NCBI RefSeq assembly: GCF_018599245.1
Contig: NZ_JAHEVJ010000006.1
Span: 124,001-188,000, forward strand
Reading direction: 5' to 3'
DNA length: 64,000 nt
Origin: Aliiroseovarius lamellibrachiae
GTDB taxonomy: Bacteria; Pseudomonadota; Alphaproteobacteria; Rhodobacterales; Rhodobacteraceae
Part shown: piece by piece, positions 49,865 through 64,000 of the stretch
How the letters are laid out: each line of letters opens with the position of its first letter
Numbering within the stretch: position 1 is the first letter of the stretch
Position numbers and translations under genes: made by a program
The notes under the pieces: model-generated
Seen by the model: only the letters and a program-made list of their open reading frames with translations
Told to the model about the DNA's origin: nothing
The model's database searches: none

Positions 49865-50118
49865 TGGAAAATGTGACGCTAAATAAAGCCTTCGTTGTGC
49901 TTTTGGCCCTGTCTATCGGGACCGCAGTTTTGACCGACATCCGCCCACAAGCGGGGACAATCTTTGTTGTCGTTGTCCTGCTGCTGGCGGGACTAAAGGC
50001 GCGTATTATTTTGACTGAATATTTAGGTCTGCGCGCGGCCCCCGAATTTCGTCGTGGGTTCAGTGCATTCCTGATCGCCTTTTTGCTGGCGGCATTGGGG
50101 CTTTTCTTGCTCGCTTAA
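49864..50118 (+). CDS. norF: NorF small membrane protein
   Basis: 84 residues with two or three hydrophobic segments (AFVVLLALSIGTAVL, AGTIFVVVVLLLAGLKARII, GFSAFLIAFLLAALGLFLLA), resembling cytochrome oxidase subunit IV-like NorF. It is coupled to norE by the ATGA overlap and ends the nor operon, converging on the regulator gene with which it overlaps 4 nt. Function is supportive and unresolved. Confidence 0.85.
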   Translation: MENVTLNKAFVVLLALSIGTAVLTDIRPQAGTIFVVVVLLLAGLKARIILTEYLGLRAAPEFRRGFSAFLIAFLLAALGLFLLA

Positions 50119-50867
50119 GACCGGCGTGCTTTTGGCATTCCGGTCTCATCATCCGAGACAAAAACCTTCAAATCGCTGATCTCTGAAACCGTCACGGCCT
50201 CTCGCTGAACTTCTACACCATGCGCGCGCAGGTTGGCGAAAGATCGTGACAGGCTTTCGGGTTTCATCCCCAGGCGTTTCGCGATCAAAATCTTGTCGTA
50301 AGGCAAAACAAACGAACAGGGCCCTTCATCCACCGGCGCCAGAGAAATCAGGAAGGTCGCCAAACGCTGTGCGCCTGTGAGTGCCTTAAGATTTTCGATT
50401 TCCATGACCAATTCATGCAGATGGCTGAAGGTAGAGCTGAGCATCGCCACAGCCAAGTCAGGTTCATGGCGCAGGGTGTCGAACACAATCCGCGTCTCAA
50501 CCTGCAACAGCACACTGTCCTGTACGGCTTCAACAGTGACGGGATATTTTCCGCCCTTCAGTGCGATCGCTTCACCAAAGCTTTTGCCGGCGGAATAAAC
50601 CGCCACGACCACTTCGTCGCCGCCCGGCGTGATCCGCGTCAGCTTTACGCAGCCTTGCAAGATCACATACATAAAGTTCGCCGGATCGCCCTGAACAAAC
50701 AATGTCCCACCACGCGGGCAGGATGACTTATAGCACTTCCTAAGAAGATCCTGCAGCATTTGGTCGGGCACATTGGCAAACAATACAGATCGTTTGGCCA
50801 TTTTTAGTTCGGCTGGGCTGAGCACTTTCATGCCTCCGGGCTTAGGCTGCGGGTCAGAATGACGCAT
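50115..50867 (-). CDS. dnr: Crp/Fnr-family regulator, Dnr/NNR-like
   Basis: About 250 residues: N-terminal cyclic-nucleotide-binding-like beta-roll (FVQGDPANFMYVILQGCVKLTRITPGG), dimer helix (LHELVMEIENLKALTGAQRLATFLI) and a C-terminal winged helix LIAKRLGMKPESLSRSFANL with the Fnr-type E-x-x-S-R reading of TTGA half sites. Sequence resembles Pseudomonas Dnr, a haem-based NO sensor, more than Fnr; the four-Cys cluster motif of oxygen-sensing Fnr is not present, only scattered Cys (KCYKSSC, GCV). ATG 50867 is preferred; GTG 50891 would leave the Fnr-type box at 50895 on top of its RBS. It sits between nor and the quinone/nos genes and is the likely activator of all three boxes. Confidence 0.85.
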   Translation of the reverse strand: MRHSDPQPKPGGMKVLSPAELKMAKRSVLFANVPDQMLQDLLRKCYKSSCPRGGTLFVQGDPANFMYVILQGCVKLTRITPGGDEVVVAVYSAGKSFGEAIALKGGKYPVTVEAVQDSVLLQVETRIVFDTLRHEPDLAVAMLSSTFSHLHELVMEIENLKALTGAQRLATFLISLAPVDEGPCSFVLPYDKILIAKRLGMKPESLSRSFANLRAHGVEVQREAVTVSEISDLKVFVSDDETGMPKARRS

Positions 50868-50894
50868 CCCTATACTATGCTTATTTGTCACAGA

Positions 50895-50908
50895 TTGACG
50901 GAAATCAA
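50895..50908. promoter_or_regulatory. Fnr/Dnr-type box in the divergent regulator/quinone-operon gap
   Basis: TTGACGGAAATCAA, 55 bp before the GTG start of the small-protein/UbiE/MenA mini-operon and 28 bp from the favoured regulator start. Sites TTGAC-N4-ATCAA are bound by Fnr/Dnr/NNR proteins. It may both activate the mini-operon and autoregulate the regulator. Confidence 0.78.
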
Positions 50909-50963
50909 GCCGTTAAGGCCGTCAGAAGGGTATGTTTAACCCGGAAAACAACGGAGGATTACC

Positions 50964-51167
50964 GTGAGAATTGCGCGAACAACCTTGATTTTGCTGACTA
51001 TTTCCAACCCCGCACTGGCCCACCACGATAAAACGCCCTTGCGTGAAGCCGTGATAGATGGACATAGCCATGCCGTTGGTGGGGCAACTATTTGGCTTGC
51101 GGCAGCCGTCATTGCCATGATTCTTGCCCTTTATGCCGTGCAAAAAGCAGTGTTTCGAAAAAAATGA
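50964..51167 (+). CDS. small secreted/membrane protein, function unknown
   Basis: 67 residues: a Sec-type hydrophobic leader (TTLILLTISNPALA), a His-rich stretch (HHDKTPLREAVIDGHSHAVGG, two His pairs within about 20 residues; only the outline is given here), and a C-terminal membrane helix (IWLAAAVIAMILALYAV) with a KKFRKK-like basic end. No family recognised. GTG start with GGAGG six bases upstream. It leads a four-gene mini-operon downstream of the Fnr-type box, and the His could bind a metal; this is inference only. Confidence 0.6.
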   Translation: MRIARTTLILLTISNPALAHHDKTPLREAVIDGHSHAVGGATIWLAAAVIAMILALYAVQKAVFRKK

Positions 51168-51454
51168 CTGAAACACCGAAACAAAAGCAACCCGGTGAAA
51201 CCGTGCCAGACCCGAGTGGCCGCTGGCCTGTTTGGGCATTGGCCGCTGTGTGTTACCCGGTTGCGGTTGGCGCGGTTGCGGTGAACCTGTTTTTTGCCAG
51301 CTTGTTGGGGCAGGCGATTGGCATGCCTGCCATTCCCCCGACGATTGCGGTGCTCTGTGGTGTTGTGGGCGGACTTCCTGCGGCCTGGATCACCGGGCGC
51401 TGGTTCCGCGCCAAGATTGACGAAGCCGAAGGCTACACCAACCCCGGAGCGTGA
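51164..51454 (+). CDS. two-helix membrane protein, function unknown
   Basis: 96 residues: hydrophilic N-terminus (TETPKQKQPGETVPDPSGRW), two hydrophobic helices (VWALAAVCYPVAVGAVAVNLFF and IPPTIAVLCGVVGGLPAAWI) and a charged C-terminus. No recognised family. ATG overlaps the upstream stop (ATGA) and is only 3 nt from the UbiE-like gene, so it is co-transcribed with the quinone genes. An unrelated possibility is a role of the kind assigned to small nnr/nor accessory proteins. Confidence 0.65.
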   Translation: MTETPKQKQPGETVPDPSGRWPVWALAAVCYPVAVGAVAVNLFFASLLGQAIGMPAIPPTIAVLCGVVGGLPAAWITGRWFRAKIDEAEGYTNPGA

Positions 51455-51457
51455 AAT

Positions 51458-52225
51458 ATGACACAAGTAAAACCCGCCCGCGCGACGCGGCTGGATGAAT
51501 TGCGCGAGACGTTTGGTGATCAAGCGGTTGCGGAAGCGGGCCGCCGTGATGCTGTGACCGCGCTTTTTGACCGGATTGCACCGCGGTACGACCTGATGAA
51601 TGATTTGATGAGCTTTGGGACCCACCGGATGTGGAAATCCACGATGGTGAAAACCGCACTGAAGCAGATCAAAGGACAGCAAGGCCCAATTGTGGATTTG
51701 GCGGGCGGTACTGGCGATATTGCATTGGCAATAAAAGCGGCGGACCCAATGCGCGACGTGATTGTCGCCGATGCCAGTGCGGGTATGCTGGCGCAGGCCA
51801 AAGAGCGTGCGGGAAACCAACTTGATTATCTTCACGCACCCGCCGAAGATCTGCCGCTTGCCGACAATTCCGTGGCGGGCGTGACCTTGGCGTTTGGCTT
51901 GCGCAATATGACCCACCCGCGTCAGGCCTTAGAAGAATGTGCGCGGGTGTTAAAGCCCGGCGCGAGCCTTGTGCTGTTGGAGTTTTCCAAGCCCGCCGCA
52001 TGGTTTGCGCCGTTTTATGCCATTCATTCGCGCTATATTATCCCCGCGCTTGGGGCTTTGGTGGCGCGTGACAAGGGGGCCTATAACTATCTGGTGGAAT
52101 CCATTCGTCGCTTTCCTGCGGCGGGGGATATCACCCGCGAACTCGAGGCATCCGGCTTTCAGGTACGCCAGACGCGGTCGTTTATGTTTGGCGTGGCCAT
52201 GTTGCATGTTGCGGAGGTTGCATGA
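51458..52225 (+). CDS. UbiE/MenG C-methyltransferase (quinone synthesis)
   Basis: SAM-dependent C-methylation of ubiquinone or demethylmenaquinone ring. 255 residues with both UbiE signatures: VTALFDRIAPRYDLMNDLMSFGTHRMWK near residue 25-50 (quoted in part), SAM motif VDLAGGTGDIALA, and LAFGLRNMTHPRQALEECARVLKPG. The C-terminal block RDKGAYNYLVESIRRFP is also conserved. Roseobacters carry a housekeeping ubiE elsewhere; here the gene is coupled to a MenA homologue (ATGA overlap), so a menaquinone role (MenG) is favoured by context. Sequence alone does not separate UbiE from MenG. Confidence 0.85.
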   Translation: MTQVKPARATRLDELRETFGDQAVAEAGRRDAVTALFDRIAPRYDLMNDLMSFGTHRMWKSTMVKTALKQIKGQQGPIVDLAGGTGDIALAIKAADPMRDVIVADASAGMLAQAKERAGNQLDYLHAPAEDLPLADNSVAGVTLAFGLRNMTHPRQALEECARVLKPGASLVLLEFSKPAAWFAPFYAIHSRYIIPALGALVARDKGAYNYLVESIRRFPAAGDITRELEASGFQVRQTRSFMFGVAMLHVAEVA

Positions 52226-53142
52226 TCTCAAATCCGCCCGATCCAATGGCCGGACTGGTGTCGCGGATGGGGCAATTGTCGCCCCCTTTGCGGTGGGTGA
52301 TTGCCGCGCGTGTGAAAACGCTTAGCCTATCCTTGATGCCCGTGATTGCCGGGAGCTGGCTGGCCGCAACAATGGGCGCTTGGCGACCGGACGTGGCCTT
52401 GGCGGCGGGTGGGGCATCGGCGGCCATTCAGGTGGGCACCAATCTTTGGAATGATGCGGCTGACGCCAAAAGCGGCGTTGATGGACCCGAGCGGCTGGGG
52501 CCACCGCGCCTCACATCTCTTGGTTTGCTTGATCCGGCGCGGGTGCGTCAGGTTGCGGCGGGGTCGTTTTTGGTGGCGGTGCTGCTTGGCCTTTATCTGG
52601 TTTCGTTAGGCGGCTGGCCGATTGTGGCAATCGGTTTCATCTCGCTGGCGATGGGGTTTTTCTATTCGATGGGACCACGGCCGTTGTCGGGCACCCCGTT
52701 GGGCGAGCTTTTAGTGATCGCGTTTTTCGGCGTGATTGCGGTGGCAGGCACGGTCTATTTACACGGCCAGCCATTGATCGCGCCGGTCTATGCGCTTGGT
52801 TTGATTATGGGCCTGCCGGCTGCGGCAATCCTGATGATCAACAATCACCGGGATCGGGCCACGGACAAACGCGCCGGGCGTCGCACTTTGGCCATTCAAA
52901 TCGGCGAAATGCCCTCGCGGATCGTGTATGTCTTGCTGATTTTGATGTCGCTGGCGGGAGGGGTTTGGTTTGCGGGCTGTGCTGCGTCATTTATCCCAGC
53001 TGCGGGGCTGGGGGTATGGCTTAGCACTGCGATGCTTCGCACATCCATTTCCACACGCCTGAACCAATTGATCCCCGGCACAGCCTTGTTTCAAATACTG
53101 TTGTTGGTGGGAACCATGGGCGGGCAGATGATCTGTGGCTGA
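52222..53142 (+). CDS. menA: MenA-type 1,4-dihydroxy-2-naphthoate prenyltransferase
   Basis: UbiA-superfamily integral-membrane prenyltransferase. 306 residues, about 8-9 membrane helices. It resembles MenA rather than UbiA: RVKTLSLSLMPVIAGSWLA at the start, IQVGTNLWNDAADAKSGVD with the first Asp-rich motif (ND-x2-D-x4-D) followed by PERLGPPR, LGELLVIAFFGVIAVAGTVYL, and MINNHRDRATDKRAGRRTLA with the second Asp-rich motif (D-x3-D). MenA attaches a polyprenyl tail to dihydroxynaphthoate on the way to menaquinone. The organism is otherwise expected to use ubiquinone; no other men or mqn gene is visible. ATGA overlap with the methyltransferase gene. Confidence 0.85.
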   Translation: MISNPPDPMAGLVSRMGQLSPPLRWVIAARVKTLSLSLMPVIAGSWLAATMGAWRPDVALAAGGASAAIQVGTNLWNDAADAKSGVDGPERLGPPRLTSLGLLDPARVRQVAAGSFLVAVLLGLYLVSLGGWPIVAIGFISLAMGFFYSMGPRPLSGTPLGELLVIAFFGVIAVAGTVYLHGQPLIAPVYALGLIMGLPAAAILMINNHRDRATDKRAGRRTLAIQIGEMPSRIVYVLLILMSLAGGVWFAGCAASFIPAAGLGVWLSTAMLRTSISTRLNQLIPGTALFQILLLVGTMGGQMICG

Positions 53143-53206: not shown

Positions 53207-53662
53207 TTAGTTCATTGCGCCCGGCCCTTTGACGGTCAGGGTAACGGGTACTTCGCCTGCTTTTTCAAAGATCAAAGTCGCCTTGACGGTTTCACCCTCA
53301 ATCAGTTGCTGGCTCAGCTTGATGAACATCAGATGAAAGCCACCGGGTTTCAGTTCAACCATACCACCAGCGGGCACGTCAATCGCCTCGACCTGACGCA
53401 TGCGCATCATGCCATTGTCGTGGATATGGGTGTGCAGTTCGGGGCGTTCGCAATTGGGGGATTTGAAGCCAACCAAACGGTCCGCTGCCCCTTTTGACGT
53501 GATGGTCATAAAGCCAGCGCCAGCCCCGGCCATCTTTGGAGAAGCCCGTGTAAAGGCGCCAGATATCATAAGGTTATCGGTTTCAACATCCTGGGCGAGG
53601 GTTGGCGTGGAAAAAACAAAACACGCCGCAACTGAGGCGGCGGTAAATGAACGGCGATCCAT
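53207..53662 (-). CDS. periplasmic copper chaperone PCuAC
   Basis: 151 residues: leader MDRRSFTAASVAACFVF ending TLAQ, then the PCuAC (DUF461) domain. The copper motif is exact: H77-x10-M88-x21-H110-x-M112 (His and Met residues in ELHTHIHDNGMMRM and GGFHLM). The family delivers Cu(I) to CuA sites of cytochrome oxidase. Here it diverges from nosZ, and the shared gap holds an NNR box, so a role in loading NosZ CuA is inferred. The start is ATG 53662; the frame is open to 53734 without conserved sequence. Confidence 0.9.
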   Translation of the reverse strand: MDRRSFTAASVAACFVFSTPTLAQDVETDNLMISGAFTRASPKMAGAGAGFMTITSKGAADRLVGFKSPNCERPELHTHIHDNGMMRMRQVEAIDVPAGGMVELKPGGFHLMFIKLSQQLIEGETVKATLIFEKAGEVPVTLTVKGPGAMN

Positions 53663-53727
53663 TTGGAAAAGGTCCTTTATTTCACGGGTTATCGTATTCA
53701 AACATATTCGATTTTCATTTTTTGAGC

Positions 53728-53741
53728 TTAACAAAAGTCAA
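53728..53741. promoter_or_regulatory. NNR/Fnr-type box between the copper chaperone and nosZ
   Basis: TTAACAAAAGTCAA, identical in half-sites to the norC box (TTAAC-N4-GTCAA). It lies 106 bp before nosZ and 65 bp from the chaperone ATG, and may serve both directions. A wider inverted repeat GTGATC...GATCAC (53760-53786) lies downstream. Confidence 0.8.
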
Positions 53742-53847: not shown

Positions 53848-56145
53848 ATGATCAGCAACATTCGCAACCGCTTTGCGGCGACTGCGAGCGTTGTCACCTT
53901 AGGCTTGGCTATGACCGCAAATTCGGTCGCTGCTGATACGCTTGATGAGGTGATGGAACGCCGGGGTCTTTCACAAAAAGACCTTTTAGCCGCTGCAAAA
54001 ACCTATACGCCAACTGGGGGACGTGATGAGTTTATCGTGTTCTCGTCGGGCGGTCAGTCAGGCCAAGTTATGGTCTATGGCGTGCCGTCGATGCGTATTT
54101 TGAAATACATATCTGTGTTCACGCCCGAACCATGGCAAGGCTATGGGTTCGACGAAGAATCAAAAGCTATCTTGGAGAGCGGCAAAGTAGACGGCCGCGA
54201 GCTTCACTGGGGCGACACCCACCACCCAGCGATCACCGAAACTAACGGTGATGTGGATGGTGAATATCTGTTCATCAACGATAAATCCGCCCCTCGTGTG
54301 GGTGTGATTTCGTTGCATGACTTTGAAACACAACAGATCGTTGTGAACCCGATCCTTCAGTCTGAGCATGGCGGCACCTTTGTGACACCAAACTCGGAAT
54401 ATGTGATCGAAGCAGCCCAATATCCGGGTGTGCTGGGCCGTGGCTTTGCGCCGCTGTCTGAGTTCAACGAAAAGTTCCGCGGTGCTGTCACCTATTGGAA
54501 GTTTAACCGTGAAAAAGGCCGCATCGAGCCCGAGAATTCATTCTCGATCGAATTGCCACCATATTCACAGGATTTGTCGGATGCTGGTAAGCTGGTTTCC
54601 GATGGCTGGTCTTTCACCAACTCGTTCTGTGCAGAGCGTTATGTGGGTGGGATCGAAAGCGGCCGTCCGCCGTTTGAAGCGGGTTGTTCGCAAGCCGACA
54701 CCGATTACCTTCACGTCATTAACTGGAAAAAAGCCGAGCAGGTTTATAAATCCGGTGCTGTGACCATGATCAATGATCACCCTGTGATTTCGATGCAAAC
54801 GGCCATCGATGAGGGTCTTGTTTATCTGATCGCAGAACCCAAATCGCCACACGGTGTCGACGTATCCCCAGACGGTAAGTTCATCGTCATTGGTGGTAAG
54901 CTCGACACCCAAGCGTCGGTTTACTCGTTTGAGAAAATCATGGCTGCGGTTGATGCCAAAAACTTCTCGGGTGTTGACCCTTACGGTATTCCAATCATTG
55001 CGATGGAAGATGCGATCCATACCCAAGTTGCGCTTGGTCTTGGCCCGCTTCACAACCAGTTCGACAGCAAAGAATGTGTTGTCTACACATCGCTTTATGT
55101 GGACAGCCAAGTTGCGAAATGGGATTATTGCGAAGGTAAAGTTCTCGATAAAATCTCGATCCACTATAACATCGGTCACCTTGTGGCGATGGAAGGTGAA
55201 ACGGTTAACCCAAAGGGTAAATACCTGATTTCGCTGAATAAACTTGCGATTGACCGGTTTAACCCTGTTGGCCCTCTGCACCCACAGAACCACCAGCTGA
55301 TCGACATCTCTGGCGACAAAATGGAACTGCTTTATGATATGCCAGTTCCGTTGGGCGAGCCGCATTACGCGACCGCTATTTCGGCTGACAAGCTGAAACC
55401 ACTGGTTCGCTATCGTTACGGCACCAACTCTCGCACCGGTGGCAAGCACGAAGGTGCTGTTCGTCCGGGTCAAGAGCGTATCGAGCGTGATGGCACCAAT
55501 GTTAAGGTGTATATGACCGCAATCCGGTCGCACTTTACACCTGAGATTATTGAGGTGAACGAAGGCGACACCGTTGAGTTCATCATCACCAACTCAGAGC
55601 GTGCCGAAGATGAAACCCACGGTTTCTCGGTCTCGACCTATGACGTGAACCTGTCGCTTGAGCCGGGTAAAACGGCAACCGCCAAGATCCAAGCCGATCA
55701 CCCTGGTGTGTTCTCGTTCTACTGCACCGAGTTCTGCTCGGCGCTGCACCTCGAGATGCAAGGTTACCTTGTCGTGAAACCGGAAGGTTACGTTGATGAG
55801 AACGCCGAGATTGTCGAAGGCGCCACCTATACTCAAGCCGACTATGACAAGCAGTTCACTGTGAACATGGAAACCCAAGCTGTTATCGACAGCGTTGTGG
55901 GCTACATCACAGGCCGCAACTTCAAAGACTTCCCTGAAGTTGTCTCGCTTGTTGAGGATGCGACGGACCAGCTGGGCTTTGCTGCCGAGGCGCAAGCCAA
56001 ATCAGAAGAGCTGGCGAAAGCTGAAGACTGGCAAAACGCCACTCTGTGGGCCGGTCAATGGTGGCAGTATCAGGTGAAAGCGGCGGACATTGGTCTGCGT
56101 GCAAAAACCTTCCTGGACGAACATGGTGCGGTGAAGGTCGAGTGA
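53848..56145 (+). CDS. nosZ: nitrous oxide reductase NosZ, clade II (atypical) type with C-terminal extension
   Basis: Periplasmic copper enzyme reducing N2O to N2. 765 residues, longer than the usual 600-650. The leader (NRFAATASVVTLGLAMTANSVAA) has no twin arginine, so export is Sec-dependent as in clade II. The beta-propeller carries the CuZ His ligands: H120, H125 and H126 (WGDTHHP), H174 (SEHGG) and later SPHGVDV, GPLHNQFD, IGHLVAMEG and GEPHYAT. The CuA domain shows C626-TEF-C630-SAL-H634-LE-M637. About 120 residues follow the CuA domain; they contain no CxxCH, unlike epsilonproteobacterial NosZ with a fused cytochrome. Heads the nos operon. Confidence 0.95.
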   Translation: MISNIRNRFAATASVVTLGLAMTANSVAADTLDEVMERRGLSQKDLLAAAKTYTPTGGRDEFIVFSSGGQSGQVMVYGVPSMRILKYISVFTPEPWQGYGFDEESKAILESGKVDGRELHWGDTHHPAITETNGDVDGEYLFINDKSAPRVGVISLHDFETQQIVVNPILQSEHGGTFVTPNSEYVIEAAQYPGVLGRGFAPLSEFNEKFRGAVTYWKFNREKGRIEPENSFSIELPPYSQDLSDAGKLVSDGWSFTNSFCAERYVGGIESGRPPFEAGCSQADTDYLHVINWKKAEQVYKSGAVTMINDHPVISMQTAIDEGLVYLIAEPKSPHGVDVSPDGKFIVIGGKLDTQASVYSFEKIMAAVDAKNFSGVDPYGIPIIAMEDAIHTQVALGLGPLHNQFDSKECVVYTSLYVDSQVAKWDYCEGKVLDKISIHYNIGHLVAMEGETVNPKGKYLISLNKLAIDRFNPVGPLHPQNHQLIDISGDKMELLYDMPVPLGEPHYATAISADKLKPLVRYRYGTNSRTGGKHEGAVRPGQERIERDGTNVKVYMTAIRSHFTPEIIEVNEGDTVEFIITNSERAEDETHGFSVSTYDVNLSLEPGKTATAKIQADHPGVFSFYCTEFCSALHLEMQGYLVVKPEGYVDENAEIVEGATYTQADYDKQFTVNMETQAVIDSVVGYITGRNFKDFPEVVSLVEDATDQLGFAAEAQAKSEELAKAEDWQNATLWAGQWWQYQVKAADIGLRAKTFLDEHGAVKVE

Positions 56146-56232: not shown

Positions 56233-56889
56233 ATGCGCGCTCTTCTTTCTGCAGTAATTCTTGGCGTGGCCGGGACGCTCGCGGCACCCGCTTTTGCGGA
56301 TGGCGATGCCCTGAAAGCCGGCAAACGGGTCTATATGACCAAAACATGCCTTGCCTGCCACGGGCGCAACGGTGCCAAACCGGTCCTGTCTTATCCGGCG
56401 CTTGCCGGGCAAAATGAAAAATACTTGGTCGCTCAGCTTAAGATCATTCAAGAGGGTGGTCGTGTGGGCAACCCAGACCCATCCACGGGCCATCCCTTCA
56501 TCACCGGCATGGCAAATATCATGCACTTGTTGACGGCGGATGACATTAAGAACGTTGCGAAATATTTGGCCGCGCAACCTGCGGCCGCGCCCGAAACCCT
56601 TGATCCCGCCCCTGAACAGGCGCTGCTGGATGAAGGTGAGGCGAGATATAAAAAACTTGGGTGTAAGGCGTGCCACGGCAAAGACGGTACCAAAGCCACC
56701 AACAAAGCCTATCCCATTCTTGCTGCGCTCGATCGCGACTATCTGGTCCGTCAGATGACCGAAATGCGTGACAAAGTGCGCACCGGTGGCAAATCCAAAC
56801 TGATGTTCGGCGTGATCAAACGCGCTGATGATGCAGATATCAAAGCGATCGCAACTTGGTTGAGCCAAGTCGAACGCCCCAGCAAATAA
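56233..56889 (+). CDS. dihaem c-type cytochrome, cytochrome c4-like
   Basis: 218 residues with leader MRALLSAVILGVAGTLAAPAFA and two class I cytochrome domains: C39-LA-C42-H43 in KTCLACHGRNG and C144-KA-C147-H148 in LGCKACHGKDG; candidate Met ligands include FITGMANIM and KLMFGVIK. The layout (GRNGAKP then PALAGQN) is that of cytochrome c4/c553. In clade II nos systems cytochromes c carry electrons from the membrane quinol dehydrogenase to NosZ; this gene occupies that role by context. The leader suggests periplasmic, soluble protein. Confidence 0.88.
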   Translation: MRALLSAVILGVAGTLAAPAFADGDALKAGKRVYMTKTCLACHGRNGAKPVLSYPALAGQNEKYLVAQLKIIQEGGRVGNPDPSTGHPFITGMANIMHLLTADDIKNVAKYLAAQPAAAPETLDPAPEQALLDEGEARYKKLGCKACHGKDGTKATNKAYPILAALDRDYLVRQMTEMRDKVRTGGKSKLMFGVIKRADDADIKAIATWLSQVERPSK

Positions 56890-56908
56890 TCCTGAAAGGA
56901 CGCGCGAT

Positions 56909-57631
56909 ATGAAACTGATGAAAACAGCCTTTTTTGCCGCAGCCATGGCGCTGGGCGCACAGGCCGCAGTGGCCGACAGCACCCACACTCCAGCGGATGG
57001 GTGGAATGAAGGGGGCGGCGAGCAAGACGAGGCGCTGCACCTGACCCCTGACATGGATAATGGTCGTTACGTGTACGAAGTTTGCTCGGCCTGCCACCAG
57101 CTGAATGGCTGGGGTCTGACCGACGGGACCTTCCCGCAAATCTCGGGCCAGCACACCAACGTGATCATCAAACAGCTCGCCGACATTCGCGCGCTGAACC
57201 GCGACAACCCAACCATGTATCCGTTTGCGTTGCCGCAGGAAATTGGTGGCTCGCAGTCGATTGCGGATGTTGCACTTTATATCTCAAAACTGCCAATGAA
57301 TCCGAACCCAGGTGTGGGCGAAGGCGACAATCTTGAGCATGGCGCGCAGCTTTACAAAGACAATTGTGTGAAGTGTCACGGCGAAAACGGCGAAGGCAAC
57401 AACGAGAAGTTCTACCCCCGTATTCAGGGTCAGCACTACTCATACTTGGTGCGCCAATATGAATGGATCCGCGACGGCAAACGCCGCAATGCAAACCCGG
57501 AAATGATTGAGCAGATCAAAGGCTTTTCCGAAGAAGATACCAAAGCGGTTCTCGACTTTGTATCGCGCATGAACCCACCCGCAGAATTGGTTGGGGACCC
57601 AGATTGGGTAAACCCAGATTTTGACTGGTAA
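56909..57631 (+). CDS. dihaem c-type cytochrome
   Basis: 240 residues with leader KTAFFAAAMALGAQAAVA and two haem motifs: C59-SA-C62-H63 (VCSACHQLNG) and C153-VK-C156-H157 (NCVKCHGENGEG). Possible Met ligands lie in NPTMYPFALP and SKLPMNPNP. The middle FPQISGQHTNVIIKQLADIR and the C-terminal half (YPRIQGQHYSYLVRQYEWIRDGKRR) repeat the same domain plan. Not similar enough to the first cytochrome to be a simple copy; probably the second electron carrier of the NosGH-NosZ chain. 19-nt gap to the upstream gene. Confidence 0.87.
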   Translation: MKLMKTAFFAAAMALGAQAAVADSTHTPADGWNEGGGEQDEALHLTPDMDNGRYVYEVCSACHQLNGWGLTDGTFPQISGQHTNVIIKQLADIRALNRDNPTMYPFALPQEIGGSQSIADVALYISKLPMNPNPGVGEGDNLEHGAQLYKDNCVKCHGENGEGNNEKFYPRIQGQHYSYLVRQYEWIRDGKRRNANPEMIEQIKGFSEEDTKAVLDFVSRMNPPAELVGDPDWVNPDFDW

Positions 57632-57642
57632 CATCAAATTGC

Positions 57643-57662
57643 GGGCGGCCAATTGGCCGCCC
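57643..57662 (+). other. 20-bp GC-rich palindrome before nosB
   Basis: GGGCGGCCAATTGGCCGCCC, a perfect palindrome, 11 bp after the second cytochrome stop and without a T run. It makes a second intercistronic hairpin, so the cytochrome pair is bounded on both sides by such elements. Confidence 0.75.
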
Positions 57663-57697
57663 CAACCGTCCTCGTAAAAGGCAAGGATGTCTTAGGC

Positions 57698-58888
57698 ATG
57701 TCCCGTGAAACCACCCGTTCCGACCGTCGCGGCATCATCTACCGCGTATTAACCGTTCTCGCCGTTGCCCTCATTGGTGCGTCCTTCTTTTCACCCGGAT
57801 GGTGGGTCTCGTTGACGGCACCCAACTATCCCGAAGCGACGTTCCCGCAAGGGATCCGGATCCTGTTTCACATGGATTCGGTGCAAAACGGCTGTGAAAT
57901 TCGCGACAGTGACGAGGTTGTTGAAACCGAGGCGCTGGATTGTGTGCATGAGATGGACACGATCAACCACTATGTTGGTATGTACCCGATTGCCTCTGGT
58001 GGACCCGTAGAAAAAGCGTTTTCGCCGTTCCTGTTTGCGATGCTTGGCGTAATGGCGCTGACCTTTGCGGCCCCCGGTCGCATTGTGCGTATGGTGGTGG
58101 CCTTGGCAGGTTTCGGCGCCATTTCGATCTGGATGACCATGGCGATGTACGGTGAAAACGGCATCCGCCTGCACACGACCAACTATCTGTCCGGGCTTGT
58201 TGTGTCCCTTGGGCAAGATGCAAGTGACAGCACCGCCAACAGCTCGCTTTCCCCTGTGGTGCAGATGCTGAAGGATTCACTGGACGAAAGCGAAGCGGCG
58301 GAACACGATGAGGTTCTGGTCGAGGGCGATGCCAAAGTTGCGCTGATAAAGACCCTAAAACACGCCTATGAAATCGAACAGACCAAGACCCCGCCCTATA
58401 AACGCGAAGCGTGGAATGGCTCGGTGATGCAGGTGTTCAAATGGCACTATGCAAAATCGCTGGCCCGTTGGTTTAATGAGCCAGAGCGCAACGATCCGCT
58501 GGTCAAACAGATGGATGGGATCGCCCAAATCCTGTATGCTGTTGTGATGGCGTTCATGGTCCTGTTGGTCTTTGCGGCGTGGTCTGTACGGTCGATTTTT
58601 CACTGGATTTTGGTGCTGGCCCCAATGGCGCTTCCGGTGGGATTTATCGCTGAATATGCCGCCTGGCTTTGGTGGTACGGGCACAGCCTGAATGCGATGG
58701 GTGCGTTCACATTGAAGCCGTTTATGCCAACTGTGTTTGGCGATGGTAAAGTGGCGCAGTTTACCACCCACTCTTATCCGTCCACTGGTTTCTTCCTGAT
58801 GATGGGGGCGTCGGCATTGTTGCTCTTGGCCGCTCTGATCCGGTTGAAACAGGTTCGTCTGGCTGGTCCGGACGCTGCGCGGATGTAA
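57698..58888 (+). CDS. nosB: NosB-like integral membrane protein of clade II nos clusters
   Basis: About 396 residues from ATG 57698 (AAGGA ten bases upstream). Six membrane helices: VLTVLAVALIGASFFSPGWW, FLFAMLGVMALTFAAP, IVRMVVALAGFGAISIWM, IAQILYAVVMAFMVLLVF, FHWILVLAPMALPVGFIAEY and FFLMMGASALLLLAALI. A charged region of about 110 residues (ANSSLSPVVQML to RNDPLVKQ) between helices 3 and 4 is probably periplasmic. NosB is unique to clade II clusters and its job is unknown. The call rests on topology, position before nosD and on the rest of the cluster; no catalytic motif is visible. Confidence 0.78.
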   Translation: MSRETTRSDRRGIIYRVLTVLAVALIGASFFSPGWWVSLTAPNYPEATFPQGIRILFHMDSVQNGCEIRDSDEVVETEALDCVHEMDTINHYVGMYPIASGGPVEKAFSPFLFAMLGVMALTFAAPGRIVRMVVALAGFGAISIWMTMAMYGENGIRLHTTNYLSGLVVSLGQDASDSTANSSLSPVVQMLKDSLDESEAAEHDEVLVEGDAKVALIKTLKHAYEIEQTKTPPYKREAWNGSVMQVFKWHYAKSLARWFNEPERNDPLVKQMDGIAQILYAVVMAFMVLLVFAAWSVRSIFHWILVLAPMALPVGFIAEYAAWLWWYGHSLNAMGAFTLKPFMPTVFGDGKVAQFTTHSYPSTGFFLMMGASALLLLAALIRLKQVRLAGPDAARM

Positions 58889-58907: not shown

Positions 58908-60203
58908 ATGGCCTATATCCGTTCCATATTGGCAATGCTCTTCGTGGTGACGCTGGCGGTTCTGTCGGCGGCACCCACCCATGCCGGCGCGCTGCAAGAT
59001 CTGATCGACGCAGCGCCCGATGGCGCAGACATTGTCCCCCCAGCGGGCACGTACACCGAGCAACTTGTCATCACCCGTCCTGTGGTGATTGACGGTCGCA
59101 ATGGTGTGGTGATTGACGGCGGAGGCAAAGGCACGATTATCACGCTCGACACAGATGGGGTCACACTGAAAAACCTGACCATCCGTAACTCTGGTCGCCT
59201 GCACAATAAGATCGACGCCGGGCTGCGGGTGAACAGCAACTTTAACGTGATCCGCGATGTGACCATCGAAAACACGCTGTTTGGGATCGATCTAGATCAG
59301 GCGGATAACAACGTTTTTCGCCGCGTACATATCAGCTCCAAGGACATGTCTATGGGTCTGCGTGGCGATAGTATGCGGATCTACTATTCGCACAACAATG
59401 TGGTTGAAGACAGTCTGATCGAAGAGGCGCGTGATGTGGTGATTTGGTACAGCCAAAACAACACATTTCGCCGCAACACCATTCGCAACAGCCGGTATGG
59501 CATCCACTTTATGTATGCCCATGGAAACACCGTGGAAAACAACGAAATTTCCGACTGCGTTGTTGGGGTTTTCCTGATGTATGCCAACAATGCCACTGTG
59601 CGTGAAAACAAGATTTTGCGCGCGTGGGGGGCATCGGGCGTGGGAATTGGGTTCAAGGAAAGCTCGGGTGCTTTGATTGAACGCAATGACATCATCGGCA
59701 ACGCCACGGGCATCTATCTGGACCCGTCACCCTGGGATCCGGATTTGGACAATGACTTTAATGACAATGTGATCGCCTATAACGGCATGGGGATCGAATT
59801 CCACACCGACTGGACCGGCAATTACTTTCGCCGCAATGCGATGTTGTCGAACTTTACCCAAGTGTCGGTGCGCGGTCGTGGTACGGCGCTTCGCGAAGGC
59901 TGGGAAGGCAATTACTGGGACGACTACGCGGGTTTTGACAAGGACCAGGACGCGATGGGTGACGTGCCGTATGAGATTTATAACTATGCGGACCGTTTGT
60001 GGATGGAGGTGCCTTCAGCCTCGTTTTTCCGTGGCGGTCTGGCTTTGGCCGCACTTGATTTTGTTGAACGCCTCGCACCCTTTTCCGAACCGCGTCTGTT
60101 GGTGCGGGAGCAGGTGCCGATGATGGACAAAGGGGTGGTGGCTGAGGCCGTAGAAGCCCCCGAAAATGACCGCCCCAAAACGGCATTGGAGATGTTGCAA
60201 TGA
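58908..60203 (+). CDS. nosD: NosD, periplasmic copper-centre assembly protein
   Basis: 431 residues: leader MAYIRSILAMLFVVTLAVL ending THA, then a parallel beta-helix of NosD type with repeated N-x-V/I-R/E units (for example NNVVEDSLIEEARDVVIWYS, NTFRRNTIRNSRYGIHFMYA and NTVENNEISDCVVGVF) and the C-terminal domain with WEGNYWDDYAGFDKDQDAMGD. NosD with NosFY supplies sulfur/copper for CuZ assembly. The last codons overlap the nosG start by 4 nt. Confidence 0.93.
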   Translation: MAYIRSILAMLFVVTLAVLSAAPTHAGALQDLIDAAPDGADIVPPAGTYTEQLVITRPVVIDGRNGVVIDGGGKGTIITLDTDGVTLKNLTIRNSGRLHNKIDAGLRVNSNFNVIRDVTIENTLFGIDLDQADNNVFRRVHISSKDMSMGLRGDSMRIYYSHNNVVEDSLIEEARDVVIWYSQNNTFRRNTIRNSRYGIHFMYAHGNTVENNEISDCVVGVFLMYANNATVRENKILRAWGASGVGIGFKESSGALIERNDIIGNATGIYLDPSPWDPDLDNDFNDNVIAYNGMGIEFHTDWTGNYFRRNAMLSNFTQVSVRGRGTALREGWEGNYWDDYAGFDKDQDAMGDVPYEIYNYADRLWMEVPSASFFRGGLALAALDFVERLAPFSEPRLLVREQVPMMDKGVVAEAVEAPENDRPKTALEMLQ

Positions 60204-60985
60204 GCACCGTACCCACCCCCGAACAGCCAAAGAAAAAGAGACTAACCCGCCGAGAATTGGAGCGGCGTCGGATGTTGATCCGGTCGGGTGCCGCAGGTGC
60301 TGTGGCCGTAACGGCCGCTTTGGTTGGTCTTTATCCCGTGAAGGCGCAGGTGTTTGATCGGCTGCGCCCCCCCGGCGCCTTACCCGAGAATGATTTCCTT
60401 GCGGCATGTATCAAATGCGGCCAATGCGTTCAGGTGTGTCCGGTTGAAGCCATTAAGCTGGGGGATGGCACCGAGGGCTATGGTCTTGGCGTACCTTACA
60501 TTGATGCGCGCGGTCAGGCTTGCGACTTTTCCTGCGACGCGGTGCAATGCGTTTTGGCGTGCCCGACCGGTGCGCTGTCGCATGACATCTCGGCCAAAGA
60601 AGAGGTGTTCATTGGCAAGGCTCGCTTGGCACGCCCATCGTCCTGTTTGGCGATGAAAGGGTTGGGGTTCGAAGGCCACGCCCGCGGTCAGGACTTCGAA
60701 GGCCTGTTGCGTTATGAAGAAATTGACCGCTGGACGCCCATTAAAATCGCGGACCACCCCTATGATCTGGAACTTTGTGATCTGTGTGTGCGCGAATGCC
60801 CGATTGAGGATGCAATCTATCTGGAACCGCTGTCAGGCGACGACGGGGATGCGCGTCACCAACCGATCATCACCGATAAATGCGTCGGCTGTGGGACTTG
60901 CGAAATGATCTGCCCGACTGAGCCTGCCGCCATCGTGATTGATACGGAACAGAGCATTGAGCGCCAAAAAGGAGCCGTGTCATGA
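60200..60985 (+). CDS. nosG: NosG, NapG-like 4Fe-4S ferredoxin of the nos electron chain
   Basis: 261 residues: a basic N-terminus with LTRRELERRRMLIRSG and a hydrophobic stretch (AVAVTAALVGLYPVKA), resembling a Tat-type leader, then up to four 4Fe-4S motifs: CIKCGQCVQVCPVEAI, CDFSCDAVQCVLACPTGAL (an irregular set), CDLCVRECPIEDAI and CVGCGTCEMICPTEPAAI. NapG homologue; in clade II clusters NosG and NosH are thought to form a quinol dehydrogenase complex, on the periplasmic face, which feeds cytochromes c and NosZ. ATGA overlaps both neighbours. Confidence 0.92.
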   Translation: MSTVPTPEQPKKKRLTRRELERRRMLIRSGAAGAVAVTAALVGLYPVKAQVFDRLRPPGALPENDFLAACIKCGQCVQVCPVEAIKLGDGTEGYGLGVPYIDARGQACDFSCDAVQCVLACPTGALSHDISAKEEVFIGKARLARPSSCLAMKGLGFEGHARGQDFEGLLRYEEIDRWTPIKIADHPYDLELCDLCVRECPIEDAIYLEPLSGDDGDARHQPIITDKCVGCGTCEMICPTEPAAIVIDTEQSIERQKGAVS

Positions 60986-61965
60986 GTGTGAAATGGTATC
61001 TGCACAAACTGGCCATGATGTTCGGCGCCGAGGCACGGCGCCCGAATAAAGACGAAGAAACCGACGCCGCGCGGGCGATGAAAAAGTTCCAAAAAACGCC
61101 CGAGCAAACGGTTGAACGGCGCAAGATCATCCAACACGAGCTGGACTTCCCTGTTGTCAGCAACAAATGGAAATTCGCCCGCTGGACCTCGATCATTCTG
61201 ATCAATGTGATGTTTATCGTGTCCTTTGCATGGGACGTTCAGTTGGTCGAAGGTGCAATGACCGCGTCGCGTTTCCTTGGTTTCCACATGGCGGATCCCA
61301 CAGGCGCGCTTCAGGTCATGTTGGCGTTTAAACAAATTATGTTGAACCTGCTGATTGGCACCGTGACCGTGATGTTCATCTGGTGGTTTTTTGGCGGTCG
61401 GGCGTTTTGCTCCTGGGCCTGCCCCTACCACTTGCTTGCAGAATGGGCCGAGGCGATTCACTTGTTTTTGGCCAAGCGCGGTTGGGTCAAAGACCACCCG
61501 TTTCACCGGGGTTTGCGCGTGGTCTTGTGGTTTGTGTTCATGGGGCTTGCGCTGGTCACAGGCTATACCGCGTTTGAGTATATCAACCCTGTTGGCATCG
61601 TCAGTCGTGCCCTGATTTACGGCCCATCATTGGCTGTCCTCTGGGTTGTCTTCTTGCTGTCGATTGAGATTTTCTTTTCGCGCCGCTTTTGGTGTCGCTA
61701 CGCCTGCCCGATGGGGCTCACTTACGGGGTAATTGGCACCGCCGCACCGATCCAGATCAAATACGAACTCGATAAATGTGTGCATGAAGGGGAGTGTCGG
61801 GCGGTGTGCCTTGTGCCCCATGTGCTCGACATTACGAAAATGGGGTATGCGCAGGATACGGAAGAGTTCATCGCACCCGATTGCACCCGCTGCGGTCTGT
61901 GTGTTGATGCCTGCCCGCAAGGCGCGCTGAGCTTTACCCTTAGGGGATTGGATAAGGTGATCTGA
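60982..61965 (+). CDS. nosH: NosH, NapH-like membrane iron-sulfur protein
   Basis: 327 residues with about four membrane helices (around WTSIILINVMFIVSFAW, LNLLIGTVTVMFIWWFF, VVLWFVFMGLALVTGYTA and SLAVLWVVFLLSIEIFF). Each of the C-x3-C-P loops FCSWACPYH and WCRYACPMG, and C-terminal ferredoxin motifs CVHEGECRAVCL and CTRCGLCVDACPQGAL, follow NapH. NapH-type proteins oxidise menaquinol or ubiquinol at the membrane. The first residue of nosF overlaps its stop (TGATG). Confidence 0.92.
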   Translation: MSVKWYLHKLAMMFGAEARRPNKDEETDAARAMKKFQKTPEQTVERRKIIQHELDFPVVSNKWKFARWTSIILINVMFIVSFAWDVQLVEGAMTASRFLGFHMADPTGALQVMLAFKQIMLNLLIGTVTVMFIWWFFGGRAFCSWACPYHLLAEWAEAIHLFLAKRGWVKDHPFHRGLRVVLWFVFMGLALVTGYTAFEYINPVGIVSRALIYGPSLAVLWVVFLLSIEIFFSRRFWCRYACPMGLTYGVIGTAAPIQIKYELDKCVHEGECRAVCLVPHVLDITKMGYAQDTEEFIAPDCTRCGLCVDACPQGALSFTLRGLDKVI

Positions 61966-62843
61966 TGGGAATGATCCGCATCAATAAACTGACCAAGCGG
62001 TTTGAAAAACGCGCGGTGTTGGATGAGCTGACGGTGTCAATTGACGCGGGTGATCGCATTGCGCTGATCGGGTCCAATGGCGCCGGAAAAACGACCCTAT
62101 TCCGCTGTCTTTTGGGGCATTACCGATTTTCCGGTGAGGTCGGGTTTGAAGGCGCAGGCATGGGGCGTCGTGATCTGGACATGTTGTCGCGCGTGGCGTT
62201 TGTGCCGCAAACACCTCCGCCCTTGCGTATGCCTGTGGGCGAACTCCTCAGCTTTGCCGCCAAAGGGTCTGGCGCTGATCCGGTGAAAATGAACGAAATT
62301 GCCGATGCGATGGGCATTGATTTGGCTGAGATTAACACCCGCCCCTTTTACCGCCTGTCTGGTGGGCAAAAGCAAAAAGTGTTGGTCACCGTGGCACTGG
62401 CGCGCCCCGCGGATCTGCTGATCTTTGACGAACCCGCCGCCAACCTTGATCCCGCCGCACGGGCTGTCTTTATCGACCTTTTGGCAGGACGGCGCGATGC
62501 GTCTATGCTGATTGCGTCGCACAGATTGGAAGAGGTCGCCCCCCTTGTGAACCGGGTGATCGAAATGGATCGGGGCCAAGTTGTGCTGGATGACAGTGTG
62601 ATGGACCGCCTGAAAGCTGGCCATTTTCGCGCCTGCCGCATTGGCTTGGCCGAACCGCACCCAACCTTTGCCGCCGCGCTGGCAGAGTGGGGGTTTACGA
62701 GCCAGAGTGAGACTATGTTTGAAGGGCAGATCCCCGCCGGCGACACGCTGCGGTTCCTCGGAACGCTCAGCCGCTATGCCAGCTTGGTGGATCGCCTGTC
62801 TTTGGAAACCGATCCTGATGGGTCGGACACTGGAAAGGAGTGA
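61965..62843 (+). CDS. nosF: NosF, ABC transporter ATPase
   Basis: 292 residues: Walker A GSNGAGKTTLFRCLL, Q-loop region VAFVPQTPPPLRMPVGELLS, ABC signature LSGGQKQKVLVTVALARPADLL, Walker B LLIFDEPAANLDP and H-switch IASHRLEEV. It pairs with NosY as an ABC transporter that, with NosD, delivers sulfur species for the CuZ cluster. The C-terminal tail of about 90 residues after the ATPase domain is specific for NosF-like proteins. Confidence 0.94.
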   Translation: MGMIRINKLTKRFEKRAVLDELTVSIDAGDRIALIGSNGAGKTTLFRCLLGHYRFSGEVGFEGAGMGRRDLDMLSRVAFVPQTPPPLRMPVGELLSFAAKGSGADPVKMNEIADAMGIDLAEINTRPFYRLSGGQKQKVLVTVALARPADLLIFDEPAANLDPAARAVFIDLLAGRRDASMLIASHRLEEVAPLVNRVIEMDRGQVVLDDSVMDRLKAGHFRACRIGLAEPHPTFAAALAEWGFTSQSETMFEGQIPAGDTLRFLGTLSRYASLVDRLSLETDPDGSDTGKE

Positions 62844-62846
62844 CCT

Positions 62847-63332
62847 ATGTGTGGATGCTCTCATAAACCCAATCGCCGCGTGGTGCTTTCGATGCTGGCC
62901 GCAGTGCCCATCGTCGCAGCCTGTAAGCCCAAAAAAGAAGGCCCCGAAGACATTCGTTGGGGCCGGGAAACCTGTGAAATTTGTGGCATGATCATATCCG
63001 ATCCACGCTATGCAGCCGAAGTGCGCGGTGGCCCGGACAAGCGGCTGGTGAAGTTCGACGACATTGGTGATGCGGTGCATTGGCTTGATATGCAGTCGTG
63101 GAAAGAAGAGCCAGACGTGGAGTTTTGGGTGCGTGACAGCAACACTGGCGAAGATTGGTTGGACGCGCGCACATCCTATTACCATTCTGACACTGTCAGT
63201 CCGATGGACTATGGATACGCCGCCGTGCCATCCGCTGAGCCCGGCGCTGTTCGATTTGACGAAATGGTCAAAGCGGTGTTATCGCGCGGTCTGTCCAGCC
63301 GTTGCCTGCCTGTGGAAGAGATCGCATCCTAA
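62847..63332 (+). CDS. nosL: NosL, copper chaperone lipoprotein
   Basis: 161 residues with GGAG seven bases before ATG 62847. Lipoprotein leader RRVVLSMLAAVPIVAAC with lipobox VAAC, preceded by an unusual MCGCSHKPN start with a C-x-C. The NosL domain has TCEICGMIISDPRYAAE, the Cu(I)-binding C-x-x-C-G-M block, and DDIGDAVHWLDMQS. NosL delivers Cu(I) to apo-NosZ/NosDFY. It is coupled to nosY by an overlap (TAATG). Position between nosF and nosY differs from the nosFYL order most common elsewhere. Confidence 0.92.
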   Translation: MCGCSHKPNRRVVLSMLAAVPIVAACKPKKEGPEDIRWGRETCEICGMIISDPRYAAEVRGGPDKRLVKFDDIGDAVHWLDMQSWKEEPDVEFWVRDSNTGEDWLDARTSYYHSDTVSPMDYGYAAVPSAEPGAVRFDEMVKAVLSRGLSSRCLPVEEIAS

Positions 63333-64000
63333 TGACCAGACCTATTCGCACCACCATGGGGCACATGCTGCGCCTTGAGCTTCAGGAGAGCCTGCGTTCG
63401 CGTTGGTTTCATTTCTATGCTGCTGTGACCATCGGCCTGATGCTCCTGCTGATTTTTACGGGGATTGCCGAAAGCCGCGTGCTTGGATTTACGGGTCTAT
63501 CCCGCCTATTAGTGACCTATATTCAGATCACCATGGCGATCTTACCCCTGTTTATCATTGTCGTGACGGCCCGTTCGATGGTCGGGGATCGTGAGGCTGG
63601 GAACCTAGAGTATATGCTCGCCTTTCCAATCAGTTTGGCGACATGGTTTTGGGGTCGTTTTATCGCGCGTCTTGTGTTGATCCTGGCGCCTGTGTTTGCT
63701 GCGCTCGCGATTGCTGCGATCTTTGGTGCGATGAAAGGGTATGATATCCCATGGCGCCATGTTGGTCTCTATTCTGGCTTAACAGCCGCTTTGGCGACCT
63801 GCTTCTTGGGGCTCGGCTTCTTGCTTTCAGCCGTTTCAAAGTCCACGGAAATTGCCCTTGGGGCGAGCTTGCTGATCTGGCTCTTGTTGGTGGCGTTTCT
63901 TGATTTGCTGCTGTTGTCCATATTGATTAAGGCGCAGTTTGTTCCGGAGGTTGTAATCGCCATCGCGCTGGCCAATCCGCTGCAAAGTTTCCGCACAGCT
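63332..64000 (+). CDS. nosY: NosY, ABC transporter permease (3' end cut by window)
   Basis: First 223 codons visible, no stop before the right edge. ABC-2 type permease: LELQESLRSRWFHFYAAVTIGLMLLLIF (first helix), ITMAILPLFIIVVTARSMVGDREAGNLEYMLAFPIS, GRFIARLVLILAPVFAALAIAAIFG, LTAALATCFLGLGFLLSAV and LGASLLIWLLLVAFLDLLLLSILI helices. The GDREAGNLEYMLA loop is typical of NosY. ATG 63332 overlaps the nosL stop. Partner of NosF. Confidence 0.92.
   Translation, partial: MTRPIRTTMGHMLRLELQESLRSRWFHFYAAVTIGLMLLLIFTGIAESRVLGFTGLSRLLVTYIQITMAILPLFIIVVTARSMVGDREAGNLEYMLAFPISLATWFWGRFIARLVLILAPVFAALAIAAIFGAMKGYDIPWRHVGLYSGLTAALATCFLGLGFLLSAVSKSTEIALGASLLIWLLLVAFLDLLLLSILIKAQFVPEVVIAIALANPLQSFRTA

Follow-up and report, generated by a model that had tools for sequence, protein, structure and literature searches.

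Why does a bacterium from a family that normally uses ubiquinone-10 carry two late menaquinone genes beside its genes for nitrous oxide (N2O) reduction? The question is raised by a stretch of 64,000 nucleotides from Aliiroseovarius lamellibrachiae (Rhodobacteraceae; contig NZ_JAHEVJ010000006.1, positions 124,001 to 188,000), hereafter the window, in which four tightly coupled plus-strand genes, smp1, smp2, ubiE2 and menA, stand behind a DNR/FNR-type box. The operon is flanked by dnr with a set of nor genes to one side, and by pcuC with a clade II nos cluster to the other, several of the nor and nos names being assigned by position. The answer we favour, with somewhat better than even confidence from sequence comparison, is that the operon belongs to a salvage module for 1,4-dihydroxy-2-naphthoate (DHNA) tied to clade II N2O respiration: a linked transporter of the bile acid sodium symporter (BASS) family would import DHNA, and MenA and UbiE2 would make menaquinone from it.

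A sequence-only reading of the window had described a box followed by four coupled genes, encoding two small membrane proteins, a UbiE/MenG methyltransferase and a MenA-type prenyltransferase, and the coordinates were confirmed as follows.

50115..50891, minus strand: dnr, divergent Crp/Fnr-family regulator (cNMP_binding and HTH_Crp_2), its name taken from context
50895-50908, plus strand: DNR/FNR-type box TTGACGGAAATCAA, between dnr and the operon
50964..51167, plus strand: smp1, 67 amino acids, with a signal-like start, a His-rich stretch and one membrane helix (by eye)
51164..51454, plus strand: smp2, small membrane protein of 96 amino acids (by eye), overlapping smp1 by 4 bases
51458..52225, plus strand: ubiE2, UbiE/MenG-family methyltransferase (TIGR01934), after a gap of 3 bases behind smp2
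52222..53142, plus strand: menA, DHNA prenyltransferase (TIGR00751), overlapping ubiE2 by 4 bases

The best NCBIfam match of dnr is FtrB, which lies below its cut-off (127.7 bits against 211). Neither smp1 nor smp2 matched a Pfam or NCBIfam model. When the operon neighbourhood was compared across 13 loci from 11 genomes, both were present in 3 of the 11 other genomes (G394, G352 and G064).

The menA product passes the TIGR00751 menA model (124.9 bits, cut-off 102.15); the other listed MenA-type models were not reached, the best being NF004751 (213.7 against 264). It holds both Asp-rich motifs in the MenA form (NDxxDxxxGxD..RxGPxR and NNxRDxxxDxxxGxxTL), which match E. coli MenA and are lacking in E. 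coli UbiA. The sequence-only reading had proposed a tree of MenA and UbiA proteins as a check, and here the protein sits among the MenAs, apart from UbiA and not inside a UbiA clade, with bootstrap values that are not fully settled. Outside the group of genomes with a lone menA its nearest kin are found in G582, then G489, then G656, all of which have men genes. Judged by family score, motifs and tree, the gene product is a true MenA. UBIAD1 is the closest solved structure by sequence, and a MenA of 95% identity occurs in Rhodobacteraceae bacterium UBA2553. Homogentisate or another acid was considered as the substrate from general knowledge and set aside, as the motifs fit DHNA enzymes.

The ubiE2 product passes TIGR01934 (238.5 bits, cut-off 158.35). 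A search of the whole genome for a second ubiE, suggested earlier, was successful: the genome (G000; 3.34 Mb, completeness 99.99%) also encodes UbiA and an E. coli-like UbiE that is 56% identical to the E. coli protein. UbiE2 shares 39% identity with this other UbiE and 47% with the UbiE encoded beside menA in G656, and by sequence it is no recent copy of the housekeeping enzyme.

The absence of men or mqn genes beside menA, which the sequence-only reading had called unusual, extends well beyond the neighbourhood. MenD over the cut-off and PF02621 (MqnA/D) were each found in one of 15 genome entries, in which G352 and G193 are each entered twice, and MenB over the cut-off in one of 13 genomes. 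In each case the genome was that of the Acidobacterium G398, which carries men genes beside its MenA. MqnC was found in none of the 13. All of these entries also gave MenD and MenB matches below the cut-off, which we read from sequence as other thiamine diphosphate (ThDP) enzymes and crotonases. Among the alphaproteobacterial genomes with a lone menA (G000, G352, G064, G241, G193, G225, G003, G016, G305, G394 and G397; completeness 89% for G225 and 88% for G305), all 11 are without MenD or MenB over the cut-off, MqnA/D and MqnC, the markers to which the genome-wide search was confined. G000 thus has neither MenD with MenB nor MqnA/D with MqnC, by which we defined a complete menaquinone pathway; it has the last two genes and none of the early genes searched, by which we defined DHNA salvage. 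The sequence-only reading had held that the lack of a DHNA route, together with a lack of naphthoquinone in anoxic cells, would refute its idea. The first of these is what we found in the genome. It does not refute the menaquinone idea, because DHNA may be imported, as is described for bacteria with only menA and ubiE (PMC9704088, in the passages concerned).

A candidate importer lies just outside the window and was missed by the sequence-only reading, whose overall interpretation of a quinone made for NosGH and NosZ is partly supported and gains in this gene a likely source of substrate.

G000:C17:189482-190333 (L068:3483-4334), 1.5 kb beyond the window end: BASS-family symporter gene, candidate DHNA importer

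Behind the nos genes the order is nosL, nosY, a TlpA-like and an SCO-like gene on the opposite strand (both read by eye) and the BASS gene. It was found by way of BASS genes that adjoin menA elsewhere, in G241, G193 and G498, then in G352, G508, G515 and its own genome. The protein is related by sequence to solved BASS structures (ASBT_NM, PDB 3zux/8oyf, E about 3e-23) and falls below the curated TIGR00841 bass cut-off (136.3 bits against 326.3). The residues that we take to form the Na+ sites are kept, N83, S96, T100, E230 and Q234 in 11 of 11 menA-linked BASS proteins and S82 in all 8 BASS proteins aligned. At position 264 all 11 linked proteins have Asn and all 22 generic Rhodobacteraceae BASS proteins have Tyr; by alignment this position is Asn295 of ASBT_NM, which is reported to touch bound pantoate (PMC10645422, in the part concerned with the ligand). 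In an unrooted tree the 11 linked proteins separate from the 22 generic ones, taken from 32 weaker survey matches, with support of 99/98.

The association of these genes was examined in 394 Rhodobacteraceae genomes, scoring the best 5 (menA) or best 6 (BASS) candidates per genome. A menA of the window type occurs in 9 of the 394 and a clade II NosZ over the cut-off in 5, and all 5 have ubiE2-menA beside nosZ (Fisher p 1.6e-9 for menA with clade II NosZ, relatedness of the genomes uncorrected). The linkage to clade II nos that had been read from the window therefore holds in the family, the window's own nosZ passing TIGR04246. The BASS survey gave 40 matches at E <=1e-25, among which a close BASS was found in 8 genomes (G000, G352, G003, G241, G064, G225, G016 and G193) with 47-62% identity to the window genome's copy and at least 198 bits; the next match had 33% and 123 bits. 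All 8 of these genomes are menA-positive, with the BASS gene linked to menA, and they make up 8 of the 9 menA genomes (Fisher p 6.7e-16, again uncorrected for relatedness). The BASS gene lies about 75-390 bases behind menA in G352, G241 and G193. In the 5 clade II genomes it lies about 12 kb from menA behind nos, in the shared order nosF-nosL-nosY-tlpA-SCO-BASS. In G373, a genome from the window's own genus, the NosZ falls short of the clade II cut-off, and at the thresholds used neither menA nor a close BASS was found. Such a NosZ below the cut-off was found in 96 of the 394 genomes, 2 of which (G193 and G352) have menA.

Two of the family loci have features of their own. G352 is without a clade II NosZ over the cut-off, yet has kept nor, dnr, smp1, smp2, menA and BASS; at L060:9215-9350 only the two ends of its ubiE2 are left. 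In G305 (L067) a MenA of the same clade is encoded between genes that look FadJ-type and RecJ-type by eye, and the flanks examined hold no ubiE2, close BASS or nos genes.

Among 398 genomes of the phylum, clade II NosZ over the cut-off was found in 8, own genome included. All 8 match the window MenA, of which 7 were counted as MenA, the count being confined to these clade II NosZ genomes. The remaining match, in G744 (L100:9775-10419), is a distant UbiA-family protein with 31% identity and without the MenA motifs. MenD over the cut-off occurs in 3 of the 7 genomes other than our own (G582, G656 and G489). In G656 nosY, a TlpA-like gene, ubiE, menA, menB and menC lie on one strand, with menE, menF and menD further on and interspersed. 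Close to these men genes (L092:7951-14877), G656 carries a pair of clade II nosZ genes that share a strand. G582 has men genes directly upstream of nosZ, with menA elsewhere, and in G498 ubiE2-menA-BASS lies about 7 kb from nosY and no MenD was found.

One genus holds both arrangements. G489 has menF, menD, menB and menE divergent from menA. In G508 and G515, of the same genus, it is a BASS gene that is divergent from menA, and no MenD was found. BASS thus replaces the men genes with respect to menA. The wider flanks are scarcely common, as G489 and G508 share only menA, and G489 and G515 also share one or two other stretches. In the MenA tree G508 and G515 group firmly with G489 (100/100), and the lone-menA label needs three changes, also when counted by starred branches. 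No BASS gene was seen in the examined flanks of G489, G656, G582, G398 or G305; the loci of G394 and G397 stop short of the place where BASS would be expected. A search of plasmids for BASS gave 3 weak matches only. Of 35 plasmid records with relatives of menA, two labelled Pseudomonas, NZ_CP039131.1 (L139) and NZ_CP100662.1 (L140), looked like cases of menA on a plasmid; they were dropped on account of their enterobacterial-type and Bacillus-type contexts and look misassigned. A Halomonas stretch among the plasmid menA relatives is without annotation.

In the window genome both units have an upstream box. TTGACGGAAATCAA is the sole match to the pattern TTGAYNNNNRTCAA in 64 kb. Chance would give a mean of 0.23 matches, and one or more turned up in 20 of 100 shuffles, so that this box is weak evidence when taken alone. 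With a slightly looser pattern a box was found before smp1 in G394, G352 and G064, at a distance of 62-74 nt, and in G498 one was found 95 nt before ubiE2. The DNR/FNR-type box of the sequence-only reading is therefore retained in some relatives, and in five others it was not found (see below). In the window genome the BASS gene is preceded by a DNR-like box of its own, TTGATTTTGATCAT. Such boxes lie 57-79 nt before BASS in the 5 clade II genomes, with one mismatch in 4 and two in 1, distances being counted from the alignment start and not from a mapped start codon. None of 2000 shuffles of the BASS upstream regions gave boxes with one mismatch or fewer in 4 genomes. The six linked BASS genes of the other genomes are without a box of one mismatch or fewer; of these six, 3 in the family and that of G498 closely follow menA on the same strand.

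The quinone made by this module would be used by the products of the clade II nos cluster, which is arranged in the window as follows.

53207..53734, minus strand: pcuC, copper chaperone (PF04314)
53848..56145, plus strand: nosZ, clade II (Sec-type) N2O reductase (TIGR04246, 860.7 bits, cut-off 625)
56233..57631, plus strand: two c-type cytochromes, NosC1/NosC2-like by position
57653..58888, plus strand: nosB-like membrane protein, named by position, with no family match
58908..60203, plus strand: nosD (PF05048)
60200..60985, plus strand: nosG, Fe-S protein (Fer4 domains)
60982..61965, plus strand: nosH, NapH-like membrane Fe-S protein by name and position (Fer4_5)
61965..62843, plus strand: nosF, ABC ATPase (ABC_tran)
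62847..64000, plus strand: nosL and the start of nosY, named by eye, running past the window end

In its nosZ, two cytochromes, nosB, nosD, nosG and nosH this cluster resembles the clade II nos cluster of Wolinella succinogenes with its NosG-C1-C2-H module. Wolinella differs in making its own menaquinone.

Our proposal would work as follows. At low oxygen and in the presence of nitrogen oxides, a Crp/Fnr-type regulator would switch on smp1-smp2-ubiE2-menA and also, by way of a separate box, the BASS gene that lies behind the nos cluster. The BASS protein would take up DHNA released by other bacteria in a Na+-driven manner, MenA would attach a polyprenyl tail to it, and UbiE2 would methylate the product to menaquinone, alongside the usual ubiquinone pool. 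By analogy with the Wolinella model, menaquinol may then pass electrons through a NosG/NosH/cytochrome c branch to NosZ. Import of DHNA would explain a MenA without a DHNA route, a BASS gene where a sister genome has men genes, and the same kind of box at both units in the window genome.

Several observations weigh against this proposal. Within the family, G305 has menA without a close BASS (the relative found there has 34% identity), and 4 of the 9 menA genomes (G352, G241, G193 and G305) are without a clade II NosZ over the cut-off, so that MenA and BASS serve not only NosZ. Conversely, G744 has a clade II NosZ with no true MenA, and no MenD was found in it; clade II nos can therefore exist without MenA. 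Outside the family, MenD was the one marker of a DHNA route covered by the searches of G498, G508 and G515, and the completeness of G508 and G515 is 90% and 82%. A single gain followed by two losses could account for the three changes of label in the MenA tree, where the pairing of G498 with G656 is weak (82/70). No box was found by the looser pattern within 300 nt before ubiE2 in G225, G003, G016, G397 or G656, and upstream of BASS none of one mismatch or fewer was found in G225, G352, G241, G193, G498, G508 or G515. BASS proteins transport many organic anions (PMC10645422). Lastly, NosGH need not require menaquinol, as the NapGH of E. coli is reported to have a higher specificity for ubiquinol (PMC6195509).

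The alternative that survives best, which we nevertheless hold to be rather unlikely, is that imported DHNA is made into demethylmenaquinone or menaquinone that serves a different electron path (NorBC, the reduction of nitrate or nitrite, or redox stress), the link to nos reflecting no more than shared regulation and co-transfer. The retention of menA and BASS in G352, G241 and G193 without a clade II NosZ fits such a path, as does the copy in G241, which by eye lies near a NarH-like gene. Set against this, all 5 clade II NosZ genomes keep the whole menA-ubiE2-BASS set, and among the 9 menA genomes the roughly 10 kb around menA hold an intact ubiE2 in 5 of 5 with clade II NosZ against 0 of 4 without it (p 0.008), this neighbourhood being the part of those 4 genomes that was searched for ubiE2. 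The distribution of ubiE2 hints that a methylated quinone, of lower potential, matters for N2O.

It is improbable that DHNA, or some other MenA substrate, is made within the cell by an undescribed route and that BASS carries something else. New quinone routes continue to emerge, as is generally known, and the substrates of BASS proteins are diverse according to the portion of the literature cited above (PMC10645422). Such a route would not need a BASS gene beside a lone menA and is for that reason less favoured; the association of lone MenA with BASS recurs at separate places in the MenA tree, and the position beside menA that BASS occupies is held by men genes in a sister genome.

A slightly smaller chance still is given to the possibility that BASS imports an aromatic acid other than DHNA, from which MenA and UbiE2 would make a quinone other than menaquinone. 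The sequence-only reading had allowed that the enzymes modify another quinone, which now appears less likely. The substrates of MenA and BASS are assigned by inference, and UbiE2 falls below every equivalog cut-off that separates UbiE and MenG (NF001242, 222.8 against 351; NF001244, 207.3 against 216). The MenA motifs are kept, however, and the nearest kin include MenAs from genomes with men operons; UbiE2 groups with the UbiE of the G656 nos-men cluster at 91/97 on a branch that is not starred, in a tree with only 3 other UbiE rows. That the set is a functionless, decaying remnant of a transferred nos-men cluster is very improbable, as the missing early men genes and the large internal deletion in the ubiE2 of G352 would suit it but the open MenA frames, which keep the motifs and, from genus to genus, about 51-64% identity with the window protein, the close BASS in 8 of 9 menA genomes and the boxes before both units in the window genome would not.

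The principle behind the DHNA salvage that we propose is already known. Bacteria with only menA and ubiE depend on DHNA, as reported for Porphyromonas pasteri (PMC9704088), which like its relatives has only the last two genes and no men operon for DHNA, and whose growth is restored by the DHNA of neighbours. In those bacteria the two genes stand singly at scattered places, and the paper uses neither the word transporter nor the word uptake; the window pair, in contrast, sits with clade II nos and a linked BASS, and its genome encodes UbiA and a further UbiE as well. Lactiplantibacillus plantarum likewise uses exogenous DHNA, by an uptake path stated as yet to be identified, and differs as a fermenter with extracellular electron transfer, the available passages naming no link to nos (PMC10746273). 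ASBT_NM and PanS (3zux, 8oyf) share with the candidate a sequence relation, the Na+ sites and the substrate-contact Asn, and differ in that the ligands named in the part concerned are pantoate, bile acid and small metabolites, with no naphthoate (PMC10645422). Mesorhizobium huakuii is, like the window organism, a ubiquinone alphaproteobacterium, and is reported with menaquinone-7 (MK-7) at low oxygen; its methyltransferase dmtH is reported to be without homology to men genes, and the excerpt available has no link to nos (PMC3237581). Transporters for shared soluble menaquinone precursors are said not to have been described in the relevant passage of PMC5738691, and to need computational prediction in that of PMC4746308. 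In the literature searched we found no DHNA importer in print and no work joining bile acid sodium symporter, menaquinone and naphthoate. Among works on nos and menaquinone, mostly judged by their titles, none had a title on nos-linked menA. Within this literature, it is new that an importer candidate is linked to the salvage genes and that a ubiquinone lineage ties them to clade II N2O respiration.

The finding offers a concrete importer candidate, linked to a lone menA in 8 of the 9 family genomes with menA and in 3 genomes outside the family, which stands where a sister genome has men genes and is set apart from the generic paralogues by a residue at a substrate-contact position. A possible reason also emerges for the presence of menaquinone genes with clade II nos clusters in ubiquinone lineages, and N2O removal by such bacteria may depend on their neighbours. 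We give a little less than an even chance to the stronger statement that the linked BASS clade is the missing bacterial DHNA importer and that the clade II N2O sink of Rhodobacteraceae depends on a vitamin K precursor from the community, its quinone head group being borrowed.

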